The notes under the pieces: generated by a model | The model's input: only the letters and a program-made list of their open reading frames with translations | Database searches by the model: none | What the model was told of the DNA's origin: nothing | Made by a program: the position numbers and the translations under genes | Shown here: one piece after another, positions 7,336-64,000 of the stretch | Layout of the letters: the number at the start of each line of letters is the position of its first letter | Numbering within the stretch: the first letter of the stretch is position 1 | From: Favolaschia claudopus | Lineage: Eukaryota > Basidiomycota > Agaricomycetes > Agaricales > Mycenaceae | Assembly (NCBI GenBank): GCA_037176885.1 | Contig: JAWWNJ010000082.1 | Coordinates: 248,001-312,000 of the forward strand | Reading direction: 5' to 3' | Length of the DNA: 64,000 nt

Positions 7336-9256
7336 CTACGAACAAGGTATGTACGTAGTGCACGACATTGTTCCTCAAGGCGTTCCGCTGACTTGAGAAT
7401 CTGCAGGGCAGAAACGGCGGCGCGCGCTTTGTGGATAGCGAGTCTGCCGAGCTCCGCCCCAGCGCGACGCCTCCGTGAGCGCGAGTGTCGGGATGCCCTC
7501 GGTGTAGGCGGGCGGCGTTTCGAAAGATGGGAGGGAGACGGTGCGGTGGAGTGTCGGTAGTCGGCGGTGGCGACGAGGCGGGAGCGGCTGCGGGTTTCGG
7601 GGGATGGGAGAGAGACGGTGCGCTGAGGCGGGCGCGGGATGCGTTTGGGAGATGCGAGGGAGATGGTGCGCCGAGCCGTGGAGTCGCTGGCAGCGGCGGC
7701 GAGGCGGGAGACGACGAAGGAATAGAGTAGATAGACGTACCGTAAATTTCCCTGAGCTCTCCATTTGTCCCCGAGGTGCGTTTCCTTTCCCTTTCTCTCT
7801 GTTCTTCCGTTAACGATAAGATAGATTAAACTAGGATTGAGAATAGTCACTATAAGTAGAGTGAAGTAAGAACAGCGCGCACCTCGAAGGTAAGCACGGC
7901 TGCGAGGCGCGACACAACACGGCGGCATGGGATAAAATGAGGGCAGCGTCGAAGGCGTCGAAGTTGGTGACGATGGTAACGCGGAGTCGCAATGGTCGAG
8001 TCGAGCGCGGCGCTGACTCAATCCGCCCGCCTTGAGCCGCGTCTAAATAGGATAAGTAACAGCCGTGAGATGGCGTAGGGCATGACACTTGCTTGAGGGT
8101 AACTTACGAGCTCTTTCTTCATAGGTGCCATCTGTGCTTTGATAATATCAATATCCAATGGGCTGCCTCTGCGTCAGAATTGTTAATGCGGTGAGGGAAC
8201 CGACATACGAGGGTTCAACACATTGACGTTTGCGGGGAACAGCATCGTCTGGGGCTTTCGGGGCGGGGCGTTTCAGGGATGGAGAAGTGGTAGAGGCCGG
8301 CTTCGAAGGTCCAGGTTCGGTGGTTTTCGGCACGGGGGTCGGCTTGGAACTAGAAGGTGTTACGGGTTTCTTGTTTTTCTTTGACGAAGAGGCAGTCGAA
8401 GGCGAGGGTGACGACTTTGGTGCCTTCGTGAAATCAAGACGAGGCAGAGGGGCAGAGATGGATTGAGCACTTGGTGCGTTAAAGGAAGCGGTAGCAGCAC
8501 GATGGGTCTTGAGCTCCTTAGCGCGCGCGGCTAGCATGGAGGATAGAGCTTGTTTATTCAGAGGAGCAGCGGCAGCAAGGTCGGGTGACTGAGGCGAAAC
8601 CTGAGATTTCTTGGCATCCGCCGCAGAGGGTTGGCTCGAGCCGGCGGGCGGCGAAGAAAGGCCAGCCGGCTCGGACTCTTGATTCGAACGAGTAGACGAC
8701 GGAGCCGAAACTCGGGGTTTCTTGGTGTTATCCGGTCCCGTCGTCTCATCCCCAGCCTTCCGCTTAAAGGTCTTGCTCGCCGTCCTTTTCTTCGAAGCAA
8801 CAATTCCCTCCAAAATTTCTTTCGCGGAACCAACTAACAGAATCAGGATCCGCGCAGCTAATTGAATGGAAACTGGACCTACTTAGCCTTGGTTTGGTTG
8901 ACTTGAGAAACCAAGAGACCTGGGAGTTGTTGGGGCGGGCCCATAGAACATGGGTTTCATGAGTGGGATGCACGACGGGTTGGGCACCGGCACGCCAGAG
9001 CGTCCACTTGTCCGAACAGCGACCCCAGAGGCCAGGGGACGCTGTGTCAAGGTAAATGTCGCCAACGGCGCCAACCGATTCAGATGGCGGTCCTTGACCT
9101 TGAAATTCGTCATAATAGATCTTTGTTGTGCTGTCAGGGTCGGCAGAGAGCGAGAAGGAACGGTTTTGACACGTCGGCTGATTCTGCATGTTAGTTCAGA
9201 GTGCACATTGCGAGGTCGGTCCAACTTACAGCGTTTGTGGAATTCGGGTTGCTCAT
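7332..9256 (-). CDS. Repeat-borne protein with GDIYLDT motif and Ser/Pro/Lys-rich tail (unit 1)
   Basis: A spliced minus-strand gene starts at the ATG at 9256, just downstream of a 5'-leader intron. Confident exons are 9256-9230, 9183-8883, 8833-8209 and 8168-8108; their phases join cleanly for 338 codons. The N-terminal part (about residues 10-110) holds GAVGDIYLDTASPGLW, then DKWTLWRAG and an HPTHETHVLW stretch, a pattern I associate with an uncharacterised agaricomycete family. Residues 120-320 are low-complexity Ser/Pro/Ala/Lys with basic clusters (KRK, RKRQ), suggesting a nuclear, disordered tail. Beyond 8108 the exon chain is uncertain; a conserved block with NGRTERKGKETHLGDKWRA near 7750-7810 and a last block SAERLEEQ before the stop at 7332 are probably included. 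Function is unknown. Confidence 0.6.
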
Positions 9257-10869
9257 AATTCTACAAAGAGTAAGAACGGAGAATTTAGCTCGAATACTAG
9301 CAGCTTACCGGAAATTTGAGAATCCAAGAGCCAGTCAGTTCTAGATGCCAGGAAATGAGTAAATCTATCGCCCTTGAAGTTGCTATTGCTGTTGCTTGGA
9401 CCAGTGACCGCATATGAAACGATTCGTCCTCAAGACCAGGAATCACAAAGAAAAGAAGGTTGTGATTATGGGCCCATCGCCTCTCCCGGAGCTTCGAAGT
9501 AAACGCATCTATTTACAGTCGACTCGTCTTCGTCTGCAAAATTCTCGACACTACACCCCTCTACACTCGGTGATACGAGAGCACTTTCATGGCTATCCCA
9601 ATCGTAACACCTCAAGTTGGGAACCGTATAATATCTGGTATCCCAGCTTGATTCCATACGAAAAACTCGGCACGATATCTCGCCAAACTGGCGAATTATA
9701 CCTATCCCCCGGCTATCCCCCATGCCCCTCCCTAACAACTCCCAAAGTCAGAGAAAGACTTACAGACACATTTGGTAGCAATTTGAGGGTGATAGGCCGC
9801 AATACCCTGGTCGAAAACGCGTCCTTGAGCAGGAGGGATGCACTGGCAAATGTAGGTTCGGAACAAGCCCACGGTCCCGGCCCGAGCAAGCCGGGCACTA
9901 TCTTTGGATCTGTTTAGTTTCGAAGCTTCGAGACTGATGAACCTGCTTTCACTGCGATTTCCAAGCAAATCTCACTGTAATCGGCCTCACCGTCTAACAT
10001 TGAACAAGTTCCAGAGCTGCGAGTTTGCGACAACGGTAATCTCGAATACCTGTCACCGAATCACAATCCACTGCACCTGCGGCACAAACTTGAACTGCCA
10101 TTGAAAATTCAAAATGTCTAACCTTGTCTAACATTCTCAAAGTACACAACGGCAATCCGGATTCAAATGGAACGTTCACAGTCCCCGTTGAGTCCTATCT
10201 GGCTGGTGTTTTTCGAGACCGGGCATCTCGGACCTGGCCGCACGGACTCGGGTATGTGAATTGGACGTTGCCGGTCAAGCCCCGGTTTAGCTGAGTCTGG
10301 GGACGCCTCAAGTAGCCCATGGATGCTTTTCTGAGTAAAATTGGAGGTTTGTGAAGCATCGCTGCGTCATCTGCGAGGGACTACTGGTACTGGAGGCCAC
10401 TGTGACTCGGAATCTCCCGGAAATCTCCGGAATGGAATATGTTTGCAGTTGTTTGTGTTTACTTGCTCCTGACCCAAAAGTTTCTCGTCGCTGTCCTCGT
10501 CGTCGACGACGTTCAAGATGCCAGAACCGCACACAGAATGTCTAGCGAGCCGTATCATGGCCTGCGTTGTGGATGTCGCGCGTTCCCGAAAAGGAAATTC
10601 GCAAACACTGCGCACGTCCTCCTTACGCTAAGGCATCCGTCGCCAAGGCGTACTCCGTCGCCCTTTTTGTCTAGCTTTATAGCTGGGGCTCGCGCACGGA
10701 CCTCTTGTTTGTTTGCGCATTGACTGCCGGGGGAGAAAAATCAAATATTCAACAAGCATAGTCGCGTTTTCCCGTGACTTGACGCGTCGTTTGGGCAAGG
10801 GAGGTGGGGGACGTGTTGGGGGAGCTCAGAGAAGTTGAGGGACGCGTCGAGACGCGTTAATTAGCGTGT

Positions 10870-53413: not shown

Positions 53414-55118
53414 TCACAATACGAGCCCATTTGTTTGCCCATCTGTTGTACTCGCCTCCTCTTGATCTTCCTCGTCTTCTCCCTCGTCATCCTCTGCCTG
53501 CAACTCCTCCGTCCAAAACTCTTGTTCGTCAGACCGCACGGAACGGAAAATCGGGAGGAGGTCTGATACACGACCCCAGGTTTCCTGGTATGAGTTAAAA
53601 GGCTCTGGCATCGGATTGTCATACGCCCAGAGATTCAGGTCCAACATCGGGAAAAAATTGGTGATGAATGCTGCAGCCTCGCCCATATTTTCAGTCGAAG
53701 AATTGATCCACGAAGTGCCTACATATATACAGTCAAGCCAATTTTGCTCAACTCGATCTCCAGCGACATGCTTGTAAGTGGGCACATCTCTAGCATCTAT
53801 GCGGATTCCCAAGCTGCCCAAACGGGGACAATGTCGAGCAAATGAGATGAGGCACTGCAACGTCGCTCGCGGACACTGCGTTATCGACACCTCAGAGCAC
53901 AAGTGTAGAGACGATAATCTCTTCCAAGCCTTTGCTAATTCTTCCATAAAGGCATCGTCGACATCAATGCCGGGGAAGGTTTGAATTGTGACATTTTTCA
54001 GTTTCCTGAAAACTAGTAGAGGCCGAAGAACATCCGACGAGAGGAGGTAGGGTGCAAGCGCGTCTTCAGCTGGACGTATCAGACTACCCCAATCCGTAAT
54101 GTCCAGCGAGGTAAGGGCGACGTGATCTAAGTGGTCGCGAAGAGCAGAGTGCAGGTTCTGCCATGCATCTGTTGTCCATGGTGACATCGGGCAGATCGAC
54201 AAGGTCGAAAGCTGGTGAGAGGAGATGATCTGCACAAGACCAACGCAGAAACGGGCCGATCTGCAGCAAACAGACAGATCTTCGAGAGTGGGGAAAGCGG
54301 GCTTTGTGAGGAATTCTGGAAGGTGAAGGGGGGAAGCCTCATCCACGGAGCAGAGGCTCAGCTTCTTCAGAGAGGTGAGCTGCGCAGCATGTATGAACCC
54401 AGCTTTGTCGAGGTTGGGGACGGAAAGCTCGACGAGGCTGCCCCAGGCACAGACTGCGTCGGAAATCAAGGGAATGAAGTTTCGACTGCTGCTCGGTAGA
54501 ACCAAGTCAAAATCCGAGACCCGAGAACACGAAGTCTTGACAAAAGGCAAAACGGATAGACCTGCCGTAGTTGCAAGAGTCAGACGCAATTTCCGGATGC
54601 GGGGGCCAAGAAAGTGCCTGAGGATAGACAAGCTATCCTTTTTGTTCGGAGCCCAAGCGAATTGGACTAGTTTTGGCATGAAATTCTGTGCAGGGAGCGC
54701 CATGTCCAATGCCGACAGCAATTCATGGTGTACGGACTGTGACACATATACAAGTTCAAGTTGCCTGATCCTAACCGAGTAGTACAGCAATCTGGGCAGG
54801 TCTGTGGACGTTATAGGACGAAGAAGGTGCTGCAAGTGCTGTCAGATTTTTGCGAAATATCGGCAATGAAACGATACAGACAAGGACGATTCCTGTACTT
54901 CGAGTACCGCGTTGCTCCCATACGTCTTCCGGCATACATTTGACAAGGGCCGCAAGGGTCCATTGTCCCCACCAAAGCAGGTCCAAGGCCGATTCAGTGA
55001 ATGTTTTGGAAGTTCTTGCTAACAAGGCGAGATTTTTTTTGGGTAGGTCATGGCAAATCAAACGGACAATCTCTTGAATTCCGAGTGCTCGATGGCAAGC
55101 GGATCCCGAGCCATTCAT
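53414..55118 (-). CDS. F-box-like / leucine-rich repeat protein B, 553 residues
   Basis: Exon 1 (55118-54882) carries the F-box-like domain: ALGIQEIVRLICHDLPKKN, then LALLARTSKTFTESALDLLW. Exon 2 (54838-53414) follows a 43-bp intron in phase and begins HLQHLLRPITSTDLPRLLYY. The rest is leucine-rich, ending in an acidic tail (EDDEGEDEEDQEE). It is the paralogue of the gene at 40671-42360 and probably also an SCF adaptor-like protein. The intron donor (gtctgt) is weak, so the exact junction is uncertain. The start codon is only 32 bases from a pair of 306-bp direct repeats, which therefore occupy its promoter position. Confidence 0.82.
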
Positions 55119-55149: not shown

Positions 55150-55455
55150 TCCTATACATGAAAACACAAGGATCAGGACACGTGAAAAGTAACATGACTT
55201 TGGCATGAAACCACGGGACCATGTCGAGATGTTGCTGCCGGCTGTCGAGATGTTGACGCCGGTTCCCACGAACCTTCTCGACGGCGCCGCGCACCGCGAG
55301 TGCAGCGAGCGGTAGTGCGGCGCCGAGGGCACGCAATCCAGCAAAAAAAAAAACTTTGGGGTTTGGGGCGGAGCCCCGACAAGCTGTGCACCAGCCGTAG
55401 GGAGGGACGCGAGCGCAGCGAGCCGGCCCTGCCGAAGGCGGGGTGCTTAAGCTTG
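55150..55455. repeat. 306-bp direct repeat, copy A
   Basis: The block begins TCCTATACATGAAAACACAA and ends GGTGCTTAAGCTTG, and is followed immediately by a second copy. It contains GC-rich inverted stretches (GCGAGTGCAGCGAGCGG, GGGCGGAGCCCCG, GAGCGCAGCGAGCC) and an A-rich run of 11 bases. Open frames across it are by-products of GC content. It may be a short non-autonomous element; no terminal inverted repeats or tRNA-like boxes are clear. Confidence 0.85.
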
Positions 55456-55761
55456 TCCTATACATGAAAACACAAGGATCAGGACACGTGAAAAGTAACG
55501 TGACTTTGACACGAAACCACGGGACCATGTCGAGATGTCGCTGCCGGTTGTCGAGATGTTGCTCCCGGTTCCCACGAACCTTCCCGACGGCGCCGCGCAC
55601 CGCGAGTGCAGCGAGCGGTAGTGCGGCGCCGAGGGCACGCAATCCAGCAAGAAAAAAACACGCGGGGTTTGGGGCGGAGCCCCGACAAGCTGTGCACCAG
55701 CCGTAGGGAGGGACGCGAGCGCAGCGAGCCGGCCCTGCCGAAGGCGGGGTGCTTAAGCTTG
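55456..55761. repeat. 306-bp direct repeat, copy B
   Basis: This copy has the same length as copy A and sits directly against it. It differs by scattered substitutions, for example in the A-rich run, which here is interrupted by G and C. The two copies together form one head-to-tail pair in the promoter position of the F-box B gene. Confidence 0.85.
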
Positions 55762-56273
55762 TGACAAGTGACTGGATACTGCGAACGTCACGAGAACGAT
55801 CAACTTGTACGAATAATAGGGACAAGCAACCGCATCGCAACCGAAAAAGGAAATTTTGCTTAGTGGGGCACACTGGTTCGTAGATCAAGGAAAACTCTCC
55901 CTGAAATATTCCTTAGTATGGTGCGAGGTCTATGCTTCTACACCTCCTCGTTATCAGCAAGCCTCTCAAGCATTTTAACTTCATCTCTGGGGACCGACTT
56001 GAATCTAGGAGCTGTAAAATGAGTGACACAAGTAAGACTACTATTCGGAGTCAGAAATGACCAGACTATAGTGATCCAACCATATACAGTCAAATTTTTC
56101 AGATTCATTCTGCATTAATTAACAGCACTAGTACAAAACAACCACCGCGTCTGAACAGAAGTAAATAGAGATGCACTTGTAGGAAAGTTTGATTTGTCAA
56201 TCGTAACGCACACAATGAAGCTTCGGATCAACCGTATCAAGACGGCCCTAAGCCACGCACAGTCTCGTATACA
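55762..56273. other. Intergenic between direct repeats and seven-helix gene
   Basis: About 510 mostly AT-rich bases, downstream of the minus-strand seven-helix gene. I see no gene or repeat here. Confidence 0.3.
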
Positions 56274-57530
56274 CTACACTTGGGGAGCTCCGGTATGATC
56301 ACTGTGCACCAAGGACTCCACTTTGTCCATCGCATACATTCCGGTTCGTTCCGCGTTCGCAAAAACCATAGAAGATAAGGCTACTGAGTGGGCATTTGCT
56401 TGGGATGGATCTGAGTGTTCGGTGGAAGAGTAGAGATATTTTTCCGTATCTCGAGTCCAGGCCTTTCCCTGGGATACACGAAAAATGATCAAGAGGGGAG
56501 AGATAATCTGCAAATTATTTAAGTTATTCGTAGCCAAAGCACTGTCTGCAAGACTACCTGAATATTGGCGAGTGCCGCAAGAAAAACGTATTGGATCGGA
56601 CTATTCACGGCGTAGAGGACTATGAATATCAGAGAGGTTGTCGAATATAAGGCACATGATTCAATGAGCATGGCGGCAACACCAATATACGGCTCTGACT
56701 CTCCGGAAGAGCCTACGAGAGATGTTTTGAGCTCCAGGCCGACTGAATTGAACACGATCACAAACCAAGCAATCGGCGTAATTTTGTTCTTGCCACCAAC
56801 AACCGTCCAATCATCATGGTGGTTGCAATCACTGTCATTGAGACCGATAAAACGAAGTACGGAAGGGCAAAGCTGATCGTTCCGTCGGCCCACAAAGATC
56901 CAAATGGGCGGGAAGTTTGTATGATTAGCAAGAAACCCATCGCTATTCCGGCTGGTCAGATATTGAAAATGGTATGATTTGAAGAAATACCGATTGTGCC
57001 CATGTACATGAGCACCGGAAAGAAAGCGATTATTTTAGTGTAAGGAGACCCTTGGTACAGCACAATCAAGCGCCAAAGCTGTATCTTCAATGAGAACAGT
57101 GGTGCCCTGGAACACTAACAAGACAACTGACCAGTAAAGCATCGGCCATCCAGTTTGTCAGCACATAACTGATTGTGTTCACGATGCCAACGGGGGCAGA
57201 GAACAACACAAGGTTGTTATAAGCCTCTGGGCCACCCGGGAAGTCGCGATGTTGAACGTAGGAAATTGTAGTCGCATGGACAGTCGTAACAAGGTACACG
57301 GTTCCAAAAATGAACATGGCCGATATGTAGCCCAAAAAGAGGAGGGAACGATGTTTCTCCTGAGCAGAAACCTTGATTTTTTGTCGAAGAAAATGCACGC
57401 AAATGACCCAGAGTGTGAACATGACACCGTACCCAGCAGCGCTGATAGTCGTCGAGGACACCAGGTTCACACTGTCATAGAGAAAGCCGTCGTCGAGCGG
57501 AGAGTTGACCTGCGTCGAGTTATCCGACAT
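56274..57530 (-). CDS. Fungal seven-transmembrane protein
   Basis: The start at 57530 gives a short polar N-terminus (MSDNSTQVNSPLDDG) and then seven hydrophobic segments. They include AAGYGVMFTLWVICVHFL, LLFLGYISAMFIFGTVYLV, VGIVNTISYVLTNWMADALL, a fourth split by introns, ALPYFVLSVSMTVIATTMMI, LIESCALYSTTSLIFIVLYA, and a last one ending FLAALANIQ|IISPLLIIF. The tail after FRVSQGKAW is cytosolic and polar. Four introns of 38-54 bp fit in phase; the product is about 340 residues. The layout (WMADALL|LWR after helix 3) is common in an uncharacterised agaricomycete 7-TM family, possibly receptor-like. Ligand and partners are unknown. Confidence 0.8.
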
Positions 57531-58361
57531 ATCGACGCAGTTGTTTGCGGGTGACCGAAGGACTCCCGCTAGTAGTTCTAGTAGGGCTTATGTTCGTTCG
57601 GCGCAGGATACTTGCTGTTTATATAATTCCGTTATCATCCAAGTGCCCTGGGTCTTCCATCACGGTGTTTTGGTTCATCATGTAACTTGAAGTCGAACAA
57701 GCAATGTATGGATCGCCATTTCATTGCGATCACGGAGTCGAAGCTAGGCGATTGCGGTTGCACTACACCTAGTAAACATCAGTGTCAGTGCCCGGAATAC
57801 GCCTTCGTGAAACCGCCACGCATCTTTTGCGGGAGAAGCTTAAGAAAGTTGGAAGGAAAGCTATATGGTTGATTTCAGGGTGCTTTCTAACTTGCTTTCT
57901 AAGATAAAGTGATACGGAGATGCTGAGTCCGGTCCCGGCGGGCGCATGCGCAAAATGCCAGCCTGAGGATTGCCTGAGAAGGGGGAATTTGAACGGGCAG
58001 GCTGCTTCGGTCAGATTATCATTGGGTAGCCGGCGCCTCAGGCTGGGTCTTTTTTTACTTTCATTTATCCTTTTGTGTCAGGATATCGGCCGCGGGCCTC
58101 TGAGCTGGGCAGTGAGGATTGAGAGAAGAATCAGAACTGAGAAGATGCATCTCCGCAGGTTTGCTAAACTCGAAGTTCCGAGTCGGGCCGGTTCGATCCG
58201 CCGAACAACAACCCCCAGCAGAGCCCAACTGTGTCAGTGACGTGAAAGAACTCAAGGTTGAACGTCGAAGTCGCGGTGAGATAGGTAATACGACTTTGAG
58301 CTACTGCATCCTCGGCCGCTGAATCTCTGCCACTGACAGCAAAGTTATGTATGATGTTACT
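57531..58361. other. Intergenic between seven-helix gene and MITE-like element
   Basis: About 830 bases with no supported gene. A GGTTCGATCC string near 58190 resembles a tRNA B box, but its flanks do not form a T-arm. Confidence 0.35.
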
Positions 58362-58628
58362 TACTGTACTAATTCGACCAGTTGTTCACGTTATGGGTGA
58401 CGGCCGGTCGTGAACTGAATTCTCCAGACTTGGTGACGGGTGACGATGACTTTTTCGGCCCAAAAAGGGCCCAAAAATCGCAAAATTTCGCGGCCGGCAC
58501 CCGCCGGGAGATGCCGACCTTCCATATATGGCAATTTTGCCGTGATTGCCGTGATGTGAACTACTTGTCTGGTGAACGATTTGGGTGACGGGTGACACCT
58601 GGTGAACGATGGTCGGATTAGTACAGTA
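58362..58628. mobile_element. MITE-like element with about 27-bp terminal inverted repeats
   Basis: The left end reads TACTGTACTAATTCGACCA and then GTTGTTCAC. The reverse complement of the right end reads TACTGTACTAATCCGACCA and then TCGTTCAC, a near-perfect inverted pair. The outermost TA on each side fits a TA target duplication, as in Tc1/mariner-related elements. Inside are subterminal repeats of the GGTGACGGGTGAC type and no open frame of note. The length of about 267 bp fits a non-autonomous miniature element. The family is unidentified. Confidence 0.7.
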
Positions 58629-58743
58629 TATTATACAAGACTCCGAGGGACATTCAACTTAGTTGAACTTGAAAGCACTGCTTAGCTCTGATTCATCCGT
58701 CTCTTTACATATAGGCTCTACGTACACCTCGGTGCCCCCGCCG

Positions 58744-59387
58744 CTACACGGTATTATGCACCAATTTTTTATATGAAGCATGATTTCTCTCAGCGGCATC
58801 GTAGACTTGTGTCCAATCTCGGCAAACCGTTTCGTATTCCTTGCTCGATTGCACTTCCGCATTTTTGATTGACTCCAACCTGGTGTCTGCATGGCAGAGC
58901 ACCGATTGTCGTAAGTAGTTCAAACAATGTCGAAGAAGGGGTGTCGGTGGCGAACGAGGTTTCTTCAAATACTCGTGGTGGTAGATTTCCAGGCATTTAA
59001 GCTGGTGGAAAAGCGTGACGGTGAATGCGTGGATGTCCTGGCCATCCTCGGAAGCCAGATGAACAGTATGGCCACCTGAGGGCATCAATTTGGCATAGTC
59101 CTCTGCACCCTCGTCGTTGAGACCATAGCGAGCAGTGTTGAAGACTGTAAAACCAACGAGGTCTCCGACATTTACGTCGAAGGTAAGTGGCCGCGAAGCT
59201 TCTAGCGAAACCAGATTGAAGTTCAGGTAGAGAATGCGTGGTGATACGCACCTGTAGTCGGGTTTCTTGCGAATAGCGAAAGAATGGTTACCGCGACGGA
59301 CAATAGGATGAATGAAACAGCTAAAGGCAGGAGGACAAAGGAATTCTTGTGCTTGGTGTGCATGCCGGTGGCGGAAATGTGCTTCAT
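58744..59387 (-). CDS. UstYa-family (DUF3328) protein 1, degenerate motifs, 197 residues
   Basis: Exons 59387-59252 and 59201-58744 join in phase. The N-terminus has one transmembrane helix (SFVLLPLAVSFILLSVAVTI), as in the family. The conserved region has FHQLKCLEIYHHEY where the family has an HxxHC motif (second His replaced by Lys), and LLRHCLNYLRQSVLCHAD where the second HxxHC has lost its first His. CRDWTQVYD near the C-terminus is typical. UstYa proteins act as membrane-anchored oxidases or cyclases in ribosomal-peptide and related pathways. Loss of one His from each motif suggests changed or lost catalysis. It is divergent from the secreted-peptide gene across about 520 bases. Confidence 0.85.
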
Positions 59388-59839
59388 GGGTCGTCTGGCG
59401 ACGTCAATGTATATCTAGACGCTTGAGGTGGAAAATGGGGGCAATACTTACCTTACAGTAACGATCTCCGAGTTCGTCGAATCTACTAGGAAAATCTGAA
59501 TAACTGTGTTGATAAGAAGAATATTCCGGCGGCCAGAAGTCGAAAGTGTATCCCGAGCTCAGTAGTTGCTGTGTTGCTGGTGATCATCCAGGATATCAAG
59601 TCCGCTGGCAGTTCCGTGTTTGATCACACGCGGTCCCTCTGTTGGTTTCACTCATGTCAGTGAAGACAAAGAGAGGTCCCTTCAAATTACCGGTTCGAGG
59701 ACAACGAGACAGTGGCGTAGATCTTCGGGGGCTAGTTCTGGAATGGGAAGTCCTAGAATGCTGAGCAGATGATGCCGGTACGTGTTATCATCCGACCGTC
59801 AAGACGGTCCTCGAAATATTTTTGTTTTGATTTGGCGAG
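59388..59839. promoter_or_regulatory. Divergent promoter region of UstYa 1 and the secreted peptide gene
   Basis: About 450 bases lie between oppositely oriented starts. The right side ends in a clear TATA box. On the left, a TATACA string on the minus strand near 59410 could serve UstYa 1. Shared regulation of the pair is inference from arrangement only. Confidence 0.4.
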
Positions 59840-59846
59840 TATATAA
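59840..59846 (+). promoter_or_regulatory. TATA box of the small secreted peptide gene
   Basis: TATATAA in GGCGAGTATATAATGGGCGC lies 61-67 bases before the ATG at 59907, with a pyrimidine-rich stretch (CCTTCCTCTCGCC) just before the start codon. Such a strong box supports the tiny gene as real. Confidence 0.65.
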
Positions 59847-59906
59847 TGGGCGCGTCTCTGTCAATGGCCTGCAGGTTTCAGCCTTCCTCTCGCCAGAATC
59901 CTAAAC

Positions 59907-60122
59907 ATGCAACTTACTCATCTGCTCCGCTGCGCTGTTCTCCTCGCCGTAGCTATCACCGTTGAATCGGTTGTGATTCGTACAGAGTCATGCCCTCTCG
60001 GTATATACATTTATTCGAACTTAATGTCTCAACCGCGCTTATTCACTTGGTTGTTGCATCCGACAGACAAACCTGTGAATCCTGCCGAACGTGGGATTGA
60101 GGAAAGCAGATGCTTCCTCTGA
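59907..60122 (+). CDS. Small secreted peptide, 49 residues, two exons
   Basis: Exon 1 (59907-60000) and exon 2 (60067-60122) join in phase across a 66-bp intron (GTATAT..GACAG) for 50 codons with stop. The N-terminus MQLTHLLRCAVLLAVAITVE is a good signal peptide. The mature part of about 29 residues begins SVVIRTESCPL, continues DKPVNPAERGIEES and ends RCFL, with two Cys. There is no KR Kex2 site, no internal repeat and no Tyr, so it does not look like a classical ustiloxin-type precursor. Its position beside three UstYa genes, signal peptide and strong TATA box make it a candidate precursor or effector-like peptide. Homology is unknown. Confidence 0.55.
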   Translation: MQLTHLLRCAVLLAVAITVESVVIRTESCPLGIYIYSNLMSQPRLFTWLLHPTDKPVNPAERGIEESRCFL

Positions 60123-60540
60123 GTTCCGCAAAGGTGAAGCTTTCCTTGTGAAGATTGCCTTATTTAGTCTTACTTGATCGTTATAGCTGTTGAACTCACC
60201 TTGTCGCATGTGAATGAAGTTCAGAACTGAGTGATATAAATTAGAATCTGGTGCATATCAATGAAAATCTATATTTCTGGAATGTGATTAGTTGCATGTG
60301 GCTCGAGAATTTGGCGCGCCTTATCGTCGAAGTAAGTTGGGAGTCATCTTGCCTCTTTGTGGGCGCCAGATCGTGACGTTACCAAATTCGAGTCGCCGTG
60401 CAGAACTATTTACGGAAATAGTTCGGCCGATTGGACCTTGCGCCACTCTTCGGTGGGCTGTACCTGCATCATGATGGGACCCATGTACTTATAAAGCGGT
60501 GGGTGGGTGAACATTGACCCTTGACAAAAGGAACTCAGCA

Positions 60541-61474
60541 ATGTCCATCTCAGTGAGACAACTCACTCAACCCACCGGCAAGTCCTTCAGAAAGATTGAG
60601 CCCTGAGCCCCTTGTGAGATCTGTTTTCAGACGATGAGACCCGGGACGCCACCCGAGTACTTCACGAGGCTTTTGAAAGAAGTTTGTGTTCTATTCCGCT
60701 CTGTACATGAACCCTACTGAAACTCGTCCAGAGTACTTTTTGCCTGCACTCGGGGGCGATCAAAGTCTGGTAGAGCCGTTCCTGCTGGCTCATGTCAAAG
60801 CGACTGTCATCGGTGGCCAGCTCTATGTTGCTGAACTCCCTGGGACGGGTATAGTCGGAGTAGCGTTATGGTTCGGCCCCGGCCAAAAATTTCTGTCCGG
60901 GTTCGTTACTTCTTCATTGCTTAATCCTGAGCGCAAACACGACTTTAGCAACGAACAGCGTGATGCAGGCTGGAATCAAACCATGAATGTTCTCGATACT
61001 GCATGCCAGAACTGGTGGGATAATGTGGTGCCGACCATGTTTATGCCTGTACTTCTCTGATTATTGACTAGTTTCTGTCTCTTGCCGATACGGTTCCTGA
61101 GCGCCTGTATGGTCCTGGTCAACAACAAGCCTCGTACCACCTGCAGACCTTCGGAGTTCTCCCTCAGCACCAGAAGAAAGGATATGGGACAGCGTTGATG
61201 TCCGCTGTTGAAGAAAAGGTCAACATTTCAATCACATCGTGCCACTTCAAATTTCATACATTAACAGGCAAAGCTCACTTCCTCTGATGTTGTCCTCGAG
61301 ACAATGGGCGAGGCAGCAGTTCGTTGAATCGATTGTCATTGTGCTGTCCGGCTGACCGCTTCGTAGGTTCCCATCTACAAAAAACTTGGCTTCGAGGTCC
61401 TCGGACCTGAAGTGATTAAGACGCCTCGCGGAGAGGCGAATGCGTATTGTTTCAGGAAGCGTACCGGAAAATAG
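60541..61474 (+). pseudogene. GNAT acetyltransferase, apparently frameshifted
   Basis: A TATAAAG box at 60490 precedes the ATG at 60541. Exon 1 (60541-60577) ends in MSISVRQLTQPT and is followed by an intron with a GC donor (gcaagt..ttcag). Exon 2 starts DDETRDATRVLHEAFE, but the frame then ends in a stop after about 10 further codons, while the next frame carries the expected continuation FVFYSALYMNPTETRPEYF. No intron fits, so a one- or two-base indel near 60675 is likely. Further on are FGVLPQHQKKGYGTALMSA (acetyl-CoA-binding motif A, Q/RxxGxG/A type) and VPIYKKLGFEVLGPE (motif B), ending at the TAG at 61472. The substrate is unknown. If the indel is an assembly error, the gene would be intact. 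Confidence 0.65.
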
Positions 61475-62365
61475 ACTGTACTGTTTTGGTGTTCACCACG
61501 CATGCCAGGTAGTACAGTACTTAGTACTAATAAACTTGAATGAAATCGCGAGTGTTGATTGCAGTCACGGTCGATTTAAGACGGCCGCCAAAGGCCGTCA
61601 TTATACTGCGTGCTGGACGAGGGAATTCGCATTTTGGTGCCACTCGACGCATCCTCTGTTCATGGCGAAACGATGGCTGTAGAGCGGTATGTCACGGTCG
61701 TCGGTGATCAATCACTGATCATGGTTGACACTATGGTTGATTCGCGTGTGACTTTGTATTGTCCCACGCTTGTCATTCGAGCCGTTTTCCTCACCTTCCC
61801 TTTGCGGCCTTTGCCTTGGCTGTCCGCGAAACTGCAAAGCGCCACATACGACTCGCTGACGGTACGAGTTGCATCTTTCTGAGTCGAGGCTCGCTGCATT
61901 CTGATTCGACGCTCGGTCGCCGCTTGCATTCTGGTGTCAACGGCCCCATGACATCGAAACACCGTCTCAAATATACTGTCCGCCGTTTCAGCGGCGAAGG
62001 TGAACCGCCATGGTGAACCTTGAATAGCTATCGCGCGCCGCTCACCAATCATAGCCTGTTCAACATTGCACGGAATGTACAATAGTACGACATCTAAACG
62101 CCGCAATCAACAGTTTCCTAGGACTCTGACTGATCAAGTTGAAGGGCGGCATCCAGATTGAAGCATCCACATAGAAATAGATCTTTGGGGCCTCAGTTCG
62201 TCGGCCCATCAGACAGAACAATGTACGATGCTGTGGGATGTTCCTCACACCCGGGAAGGCGCGATTATCTCTGACTATCACCTCCATGAGTCTCGCGTCA
62301 CCTTGAGAAGATAATAAAATAGGTTGTCGCTGGCGCTTCTACACTCTCGCTGTTCGTTCACCGTG
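61475..62365. other. Intergenic between GNAT and UstYa 2
   Basis: About 890 bases with no supported gene. It holds a palindromic TAGTACAGTACTTAGTACTA near 61510 and GACGGCCGCCAAAGGCCGTC near 61580, perhaps remnants of mobile-element ends. An AT-rich GATAATAAAATAGG near 62310 may be the UstYa 2 promoter. Confidence 0.35.
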
Positions 62366-63020
62366 ATGTATGCCCCACAAGCGTCGGTCGTGGTGTCTGC
62401 GCTCTGCATTCTTGCAATCCTCAACATTACGACGGTCATACTCGGTTATTATCGCCACATAGAAACAAGTCTGAACATCCCGAGTGAGTTATCTTTCAAT
62501 TGCATTTAATCAGGGGATACTAATTCCTACCTCTTCAACAGCGTACATTGATAAAAACTATCCTCTCGAGCTTGTCGGTTGGGACATCGAACCTGTGGAG
62601 ATGGCTTTCCACGAAACCGTCCGGTTCGACCTTAACGCGTCCGACAGCGCGGCCGACCGGGAATGGCGCTTGCTCTACGTCCCTCCTTACACCGTTCATC
62701 TAGGGCCCGGACAGCGTTTATTCGCTCTGGCCTTTTACCACCAGTTTCATTGTCTGCGAGCCATGCAGTTCGCCATAACTCATCCAGAGGATCATACTTA
62801 CACCCTCGAGCATATTCAGCACTGCTTGAACTATCTCAGACAACATCTGTTATGTGCGGCAGACGACGAACTTGAGGCCGGGGATTTTCTGAGATGGGAT
62901 CTCACACCAGGTCATTTGGAATCACTTCGGGTTTGCAGGGATTGGGAGAAGGTGTACCATATCGTTGACACATCTCTGATGGATTTCAAGGAGTCGACAC
63001 ACTCTCCGATCCGTACATAG
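62366..63020 (+). CDS. UstYa-family (DUF3328) protein 2, 198 residues
   Basis: Exons 62366-62483 and 62542-63020 join in phase. The N-terminal helix (VVVSALCILAILNITTVILG) anchors the protein. Both family motifs are intact: YHQFHCLRAM (HxxHC) and EHIQHCLNYLRQHLLC (HxxHC plus LRQ). CRDWEKVYH near the C-terminus also matches. The family contains copper- or iron-type oxidases and cyclases that modify ribosomal peptides such as ustiloxin; the reaction here is not predictable. An alternative upstream in-frame start would need a non-ATG codon, so the ATG at 62366 is preferred. Confidence 0.9.
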
Positions 63021-63246
63021 CTGTTTGAGTGTTAGTATTATCTCCGTTGCTCGTTCTCAATATAGCGCGTGAAGTCGGGCTTTTTACCTTCAAGTTCCAC
63101 CGTGTTTAGATCAAGATTCAGCAAAGATCTAGGGTACCCATTTTGCTAAGATGTTCATCATCGGAAGTGCACAACTCCGGTGGAAGTTCGAACTTGAACG
63201 GCAATTGGAAAGGAGATCGTGACAGTGTTCCCTTTACCCGCACACC

Positions 63247-63924
63247 ATGAATTTCAGTTATCCATTGTCTCAGAGCCGACCTCGTAATTTCTCTCTTCGT
63301 TGGATACTCTGGACGCTTGGAGGAATCAACTTCTTAATATTGCTAGTCGGTATTCGGCGGACGTGGCTTCGCGTTCATGAGCCCCACGGTATTTTTCCTT
63401 CGTTGCGCAAGTTCCGAGTCGTTCATTGACATAAAGAATAAGTAGACACCGTTTACCTGGGTCAGAACGATCCTCTTGAGCTCCCCCTCCATTTTGAAGC
63501 TGTGGGGATGAGCCTGCTCCGAGAAACCACTCGATTCGACATGGATTTATCGAGTAATATCTCTCTCAAGGAATGGGAAACACTCTCCGTGCATCCTTTT
63601 GTTGTCCATCTTGGCGCCAACAGACGTGCTTTCACCGTCGCGTACTATCACCAATGGCATTGCGTCCACGTTCTTTCTTTGACTTTCCTCAGAGGGGAAT
63701 ACAAACGTCTCACGAACGAACATGTCCAGCACTGCCTGAACTACCTGCGACAATCCTTTCTCTGTCTCTCCGACGACAGCTTAGAACCAGGGGATTTCAT
63801 GAGTGCTCATATGAACGTGTTCGGGGGCAATGTGGTTTGTAGGAATTGGGAGGAGGTGGACTTTTTCGTGGATAGAAATTTGAAGGATTGGATGGAATGG
63901 AATAAAACCAATTTCGCACTGTAA
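63247..63924 (+). CDS. UstYa-family (DUF3328) protein 3, 206 residues
   Basis: Exons 63247-63388 and 63446-63924 join in phase. The N-terminus has the membrane helix (WILWTLGGINFLILLVGI). The family motifs are YHQWHCVHVL and EHVQHCLNYLRQSFLC, both intact, and CRNWEEVDFF closes the domain. It lies 226 bases after UstYa 2 in the same direction and shares its exon sizes (exon 2 is 479 bases in both), so the two arose by tandem duplication. The activity is unknown, as for UstYa 2. Confidence 0.9.
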
Positions 63925-64000
63925 CGGTGTATGCACCTCTATGATAATTCTTCGATTCAACAAACTTAGACACAATACACCAAAGTAATTGCATAAGCGA

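Follow-up and report, generated by a model that had tools for sequence, protein, structure and literature searches.

A small UstYa, secreted-peptide and But2-like gene cluster in Favolaschia claudopus suggests a possible peptide-tailoring pathway of an undescribed kind

Why should a mushroom keep three UstYa-family genes within a few kilobases of a gene for a 49-residue secreted peptide? The question is raised by the right end of a stretch of 64,000 nucleotides from the wood-rotting mushroom Favolaschia claudopus (contig JAWWNJ010000082.1, here C82:248001-312000; assembly of 264.6 Mb in 460 contigs). We call this whole stretch the window, and positions given without a contig name are counted in it. 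An initial annotation had placed three DUF3328 (UstYa) genes, a signal-peptide gene with a TATA box and a GNAT gene here, and saw a possible basidiomycete peptide cluster that might run past the window. All of these genes are present, the cluster does run on, and the idea that UstYa genes are clustered with a plausible precursor in a basidiomycete is supported, with the precursor role being the part we argue for below. What the genes point to is a peptide-tailoring pathway of an undescribed style. A description of this cluster type was not found in searches of the open-licence PMC literature, where one paper names both But2 and UstYa, and may exist elsewhere.

The cluster and its peptide gene

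We name the UstYa genes A, B and C. All of them pass the PF11807 cut-off of 25 bits, with 48.3 bits for A, 47.5 for B and 43.0 for C, and their single exons pass it too. Gene A is on the minus strand at 58744-59387, with exons 59387-59252 and 59201-58744 around a phase-1 intron (59202-59251). Genes B and C are on the plus strand at 62366-63020 (exons 62366-62483 and 62542-63020) and 63247-63923 (exons 63247-63388 and 63446-63923). In A, B and C alike a phase-1 intron follows a hydrophobic N-terminal stretch. At NCBI, the F. claudopus record R3P38DRAFT_1780003 matches the spliced B protein along its whole length with 100% identity.

The candidate precursor gene, P, is on the plus strand at 59907-60122. 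It encodes 49 residues in two exons (59907-60000 and 60067-60122), with 66 bases of phase-1 intron between them. A hydrophobic leader, judged to be a signal peptide by hydrophobicity alone, is followed by VVIRTESCPL / DKPVNPAERGIEESRCFL, where the slash marks the intron. The TATA box (TATATAA, plus strand, 59840-59846) starts 67 bases 5' of the ATG. By itself P is not above chance, as loose models of a two-exon secreted gene have 127 start sites across 176.7 kb of control DNA. It is lifted above chance because peptide genes recur at other UstYa loci. The support for P is its spliced model, a second intact copy on contig C13 and those counterparts. A search of its own genome gives the two copies and one chance-level match on C36 (E 3.7). 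The gene is apparently unannotated, since a protein search returned no candidate.

The C13 copy of P (L025) is a side observation worth recording. A single change there turns VIRTESC into VIRRESC, and this is the sole copy checked that has a dibasic pair (RR).

Next to P lies the GNAT acetyltransferase gene (plus strand, 60707-61474), modelled by eye with five exons and matching PF13508 at 40.3 bits against a cut-off of 27 (4.1e-10). The cluster extends about 4 kb beyond the window into L009, the DNA that follows on C82 (L009:4459 is C82:316459, or position 68459 of the extended window). This part holds gene D, which encodes a But2-like membrane protein (minus strand, L009 about 1-990), and a flavin adenine dinucleotide (FAD) oxidase gene (plus strand, L009 2434-4001). 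The initial annotation had proposed a look at the next 30 kb for a Kex2-like protease or methyltransferases. Of the 13 frames of at least 190 residues that lie there beyond the cluster (L009-L011), 10 were given to Pfam, and neither kind of enzyme was recognised in them. Besides these, Pfam was given 10 window frames and, from L012, L013, L021 and L022, 10 of 29 frames of at least 150 residues. Families may have been overlooked because these frames are single exons.

A set that recurs at other loci

Do these genes belong together? Gene D offers one way to ask. A genome-wide tblastn with the D record at E 0.01 finds 10 loci (11 rows, C82 twice), which are C82 itself and three trios of contigs: T1 (C8, C75, C101), T2 (C13, C70, C185) and T3 (C23, C110, C51). 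We take each trio to be haplotype copies of one locus, which leaves four independent groups. A UstYa match lies within 6 kb of D in all 10 loci, at T3 by weak matches alone. A crude estimate of the chance of this linkage is 3e-11 for four independent groups and about 1e-8 without T3. When the cluster proteins are placed on the UstYa loci by tblastn, the gene order is A-type, D, canonical UstYa at T1 and UstYa, D, A-type, UstYa at T2. GNAT and the FAD oxidase are not found by tblastn at T1 or T2, so we place them outside the recurring core.

Gene D itself has no Pfam match at E 0.1. Its probable family is read from its relatives: PF09792, the But2 C-terminal family, is found in 4 of 20 proteins from the D protein search, and the UniRef name of D's own record agrees with it as far as the name is listed. 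Genome-wide, PF09792 passes its cut-off once at T1 and three times at T2, each time near UstYa genes. The D-like genes found in F. claudopus adjoin UstYa matches. In a fold search with D, two carbohydrate-binding modules stand out, with Eph ligand-binding domains and others at middling Z.

The linkage appears to reach other genera. Five named assemblies turn up in both the UstYa and the D protein searches, and in four of them both proteins lie on equally long contigs: F. claudopus, Agrocybe pediades CPC08 (82,550), Pholiota conissans (160,552) and Cyathus striatus (283,350), where outside F. claudopus the linkage is read from equal contig sizes, not gene maps. In a tree of six A-type copies and 28 other rows, B falls together with P0006 of Pholiota, P0005 of Agrocybe and two proteins from Mycena (99/97), while C has P0020 of Pholiota as its partner (100/98). 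Relatives of all three genes, B, C and D, thus occur in Pholiota, and the equal size of its UstYa and D contigs makes one shared contig probable.

The same tree puts the six A-type copies in one clade (99/93), and this clade has lost part of its copper motifs. B has HQFHC and HIQHC and C has HQWHC and HVQHC, two HxxHC motifs each. This pair is present in 28 of the 29 proteins from the gene B protein search (B's record included; the exception is P0029). Gene A lacks it, having HQLKC and LLRHC, though it is a PF11807 member by profile. The canonical pair is missing from every one of the eight A-type genes (C82, C13, three at T1 and three at T2). They have HQLKC or HQLRC (HQLKY on C13) and then xxRHC, which means the second His of motif 1 and the first His of motif 2 are gone, two of the four copper-motif histidines. 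One further UstYa at T2 retains the first motif only. Searched against PDB sequences, the UstYa profile has no match at 0.001.

Small secreted peptide genes are the other recurring part. A scan of T1 and T2 for hydrophobic N-termini gives many short frames; we modelled the small genes that are in all three copies of a locus. T1 has a peptide of 49 residues, MNFFATLFTALTFVLAVRAAPVEVDVRCEVRGV/DMDAGAHTNTEAARCF on C75. T2 has two, T2a with 57 residues and the C-terminal end CADKTNLDVPEGSDEERGCNVDF, and T2b with 60 residues and the C-terminal end CDTGLNLDVPDSVADTLRCNNRDF (C70). All 11 copies of the four peptides, P included, have two exons and a phase-1 intron of 50-66 bases. All 11 end in R(G)C, 0-4 residues and F, to which P adds a final L. 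Two cysteines follow the leader with a spacing of 17 in P, T2a and T2b or 19 in T1 (one or two copies of each). Tyr and Trp are absent, and the recurring aromatic residue of the mature part is Phe near the C-terminus. For P, T1 and T2a a TATA-like box starts 55-67 bases upstream; for T2b the box is a weaker CATAAA, at 54-61 bases. The distance to the A-type gene is 0.5 kb for P, 0.4 kb for T1 (behind it) and about 1 and 1.7 kb for the T2 genes. Small secreted two-exon genes with two cysteines are therefore near an A-type gene at all three readable D groups (C82, T1 and T2). The initial annotation would have been undercut by the same UstYa genes occurring elsewhere without peptide genes, and at T1 and T2 this is not so.

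Two other identities for P were tried and rejected. It does not look like a CaaX pheromone precursor: P ends in CFL and T1 in CF, not in C plus three residues, and the leader is hydrophobic. A leftover UstYa first exon would share the intron phase and the hydrophobic start. We dropped this reading because the peptides at T1 and T2 share P's closed form of two exons and stand next to UstYa genes of their own.

We are fairly confident that the recurring set of a canonical UstYa, a variant UstYa, a But2-like protein and a small two-cysteine peptide is real.

What the cluster may do

We propose that the set is a compact peptide-tailoring cluster, in which a UstYa/But2 machine acts on a single-core disulfide peptide, and we regard the case for this as evenly balanced. 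Gene P would give a short secreted precursor, with a signal peptide and then one two-cysteine segment with Phe near the C-terminus. The two cysteines could close one disulfide loop, 17 residues long. In the lumen of the endoplasmic reticulum or Golgi, B and C would act on a C-H bond of the peptide as membrane-anchored binuclear copper oxidases. A would be unable to bind copper canonically and is probably a partner subunit. The probable task of D, presumably a beta-sandwich anchored in the membrane, is to hold the peptide or the complex. The FAD oxidase and GNAT would be extras of the C82 copy.

The copper chemistry is argued by analogy to CctR of the cyclochlorotine pathway in Talaromyces. CctR is in the same Pfam family as B and C and shares with them HxxHC..HxxHC and probably a hydrophobic N-terminal helix. 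Its four histidines are reported to bind two coppers, with the motif at the dimer interface, and activity is lost when its conserved His and Cys are changed to Ala (PMC12435403). A-type proteins have lost motif histidines that hold the coppers in CctR, so they are probably not self-sufficient oxidases. CctR differs in being a homodimer that works on a non-ribosomal peptide, whereas the F. claudopus cluster holds canonical and motif-variant copies. Since these sit together a heteromer is possible, and joining A with B or C would be the simplest role for a copy that is inactive yet conserved.

The nearest described relatives are the dikaritin clusters of ascomycetes (ustiloxin, phomopsin, asperipin-2a), where UstYa genes also adjoin a signal-peptide precursor gene. 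As described in PMC7329392 and PMC9233826, known dikaritin precursors are Kex2-cut repeat proteins, often with a core Tyr. Here there is instead a short single-core two-cysteine peptide, together with a But2-like protein and a variant UstYa. The usual dikaritin reading of such UstYa genes is therefore not supported for P, which has no KR site, repeat or Tyr, and since the other peptides also lack Kex2 repeats and Tyr we do not consider this an ordinary dikaritin cluster. Some UstY-type clusters of lichen fungi (Lecanoromycetes) have signal-peptide genes lacking repeated motifs. These are ascomycete clusters, and the excerpts of PMC12048977 that describe them mention neither a But2 partner nor a two-cysteine build, which sets them apart by description. 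Victorin of Cochliobolus victoriae is a UstYa-type peptide in which, according to PMC9233826, the C-terminal Phe side chain is joined to an inner Leu. It comes from a multi-core precursor; the likeness, by description, is that the F. claudopus peptides end in or beside Phe. A reaction centred on Phe is a natural guess on that account and no more.

Several observations weigh against this reading. P, T1, T2a and T2b have no KR, RR, KK or RK (one copy of each) and their models have no repeats. No homologue candidate for P was found among 5.8 billion proteins, in a search that is weak because the query has 49 residues and three shared 5-residue words are needed. Homology among P, T1 and T2 is unclear: T2a and T2b are clearly alike (7e-9), P and T1 only marginally (E 0.019), and T2b finds its own three copies alone in the genome. 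The block of A, P and GNAT (58720-62021) is repeated with 94.7% identity at C13:240.9-244.2 kb, and the 10 kb read there hold no B, C or D, so the genes of this block do occur apart from the rest. The T3 matches to UstYa are weak (E 5e-6 to 7e-6 and 5e-5 to 2e-4) and several have stops. In Peniophora sp. CONT the UstYa and D matches lie on different contigs. The predicted structure of B, with a helix at 5-35, has low confidence (predicted local distance difference test 62.6).

The peptide genes can also be judged by their rarity. When a detector with relaxed splicing and a rule of two cysteines and F is run on 93.6 kb of cluster DNA, it finds 11 genes (4 distinct, with copies counted); on 176.7 kb of control DNA it finds 2. 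It is a measure of rarity and not an independent test because the rule was drawn from the same four peptides. Both control detections are unlike the family, and one is at another UstYa locus (L006), which also counts on the negative side. Without the rule there are 94 start sites in cluster DNA against 127 in the control. A narrower detector gives 4 motif matches in 35 kb and no models in 137 kb.

Constraint is a further line of reasoning. We compared haplotype copies for T1 and T2, and the C82 and C13 blocks for P. There are no indels in 1671 aligned bases of peptide exon versus 65 in 4290 non-coding bases. The pooled changes are 29 synonymous in 398 sites and 25 nonsynonymous in 1243, and the resulting dN/dS of about 0.28 and Fisher value of 2e-6 come from pairs that are not independent. 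By gene the synonymous and nonsynonymous changes are 20:6 in T2a, 4:4 in T1, 1:1 in P and 4:14 in T2b. With 14 nonsynonymous changes to 4 synonymous, T2b has no sign of constraint, and this too is a point against the proposed reading.

The best surviving alternative is that the UstYa/But2 cluster is real and conserved but works on a different substrate, which might be a peptide other than P, some part of the cell wall or a glycan, or a small molecule that the FAD oxidase helps to make. P would then be a secreted peptide that acts separately and only travels with A. We find this credible and rather unlikely. Against it, the A-type UstYa genes at T1 and T2 also have small peptide genes of P's build close by. 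Neither a non-ribosomal peptide synthetase nor a polyketide synthase was named among the frames submitted to Pfam, which are a part of all frames. We put the claim that P is the substrate at about even strength, which makes it likelier than any single rival.

Another route would be a classical dikaritin-type ribosomally synthesised and post-translationally modified peptide cluster, with its true repeat precursor elsewhere in the genome and P unrelated. The survey by Umemura (2020) speaks for it, as UstYa genes are near Kex2-processed repeat proteins in many fungi, and 103 of 1680 such precursors in Basidiomycota (6.1%) have a DUF3328 neighbour (PMC7329392). However, a search of the window for tandem repeats shows no array inside A, B, C, P or GNAT, and the ten frames tested downstream include no protease. 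A distant precursor is also less needed given P-like genes at each readable D group, and we judge this scenario improbable. A chance gathering of tandem-duplicated ordinary UstYa genes, with P a spurious open reading frame, would suit both the empty protein search for P and a repeat-rich, haplotype-variable stretch that two homeologous contigs lack, but it has little to recommend it when UstYa matches are near all 10 D loci, the peptide build recurs, and homologues of B, C and D are on equally long contigs in other genera.

If the tailoring reading is right it may extend to a class. We suggest tentatively, at somewhat less than even strength, that mushrooms have a class of ribosomal peptides outside the literature searched. 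It would have secreted single-core two-cysteine precursors with a C-terminal Phe, a heteromeric copper oxidase of canonical and motif-deficient UstYa working in the secretory pathway, a But2 beta-sandwich protein of the membrane that binds peptide or glycan, and UstYa-UstYa-But2 clusters across the Agaricales. A link between DUF3328 genes and secreted peptides of basidiomycetes was made before in the survey cited above, which also considers that cyclisation is possibly scarce in Basidiomycota (PMC7329392). As presented there, its criterion would not select the F. claudopus peptides since they have no Kex2 repeats, and short single-core precursors would be an alternative answer to that scarcity. 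Many mushroom UstYa genes may then have small adjacent substrates that are invisible to searches for Kex2 repeats. Pleurotus ostreatus, for example, is reported to have 16 UstYa-like genes, six of them developmentally expressed (PMC8893723). The cluster would also allow a direct test of whether DUF3328 copper enzymes pair with catalytically inactive partners.

The surrounding DNA

The cluster stretch is present on one of three homeologous contigs. About 12.6 kb of C82, from 55858 through the window end at 64000 to L009:4459, is absent from C31 and C6. There the left flank (to 55857) and the right flank (from L009:4459) are about 95 bases apart, and these 95 bases are unalignable. A DNA search of the genome finds the B-C pair solely on C82. 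No clear mobile-element ends were seen in the flank sequence examined. Two dispersed repeats lie within it, each with at least about 40 genome matches: one of about 270 bases at 58362-58629, which also occurs at the T1 locus (L021, 83%), and one of about 550 bases at L009:1206-1754. At its left edge a 306-base unit stands twice in tandem (55150-55762, 95% matches). Within the stretch there is also a gene for a multi-pass membrane protein (56519-57587, minus strand, modelled by eye), neither of whose exon frames has a Pfam family over cut-off.

An F-box-like gene at 53414-54841 is in triplicate, on C82, C31 and C6 (96 and 95% identity), and we read this trio, too, as haplotype copies of one locus. 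All three places examined, this region, T1 and T2, are present three times each in the assembly, as if three haplotypes had been assembled versus the two of a dikaryon. The published PacBio genome of strain CIRM-BRFM 2984 is given as 265 Mb with 86.8% duplicated BUSCO genes (PMC10905254).

Some neighbours of T1 can be noted. A DUF6534 protein is encoded nearby (L021:1198-1971). A fragment of the T1 A-type UstYa, 95% identical and with one in-frame stop, lies about 12 kb from T1 at C8:3015792-3016076. Right behind the T1 cluster are frames (L022 near 1862, which is C8:3032862, and C75:1161231) with an LPGPPNP start that we take to recall cytochrome P450; the first-exon frame there, L022:1832-2323, has no Pfam family.

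The window has no Rfam match at the gathering threshold anywhere in its 64 kb. At its other end a unit of about 9.87 kb recurs between 2685 and 29861, with frames at 2685 and 12555, at 7375, 17246 and 27345, and at 9408, 19279 and 29352. Copies 1 and 2 have identical translations, and copy 3 is partly diverged.

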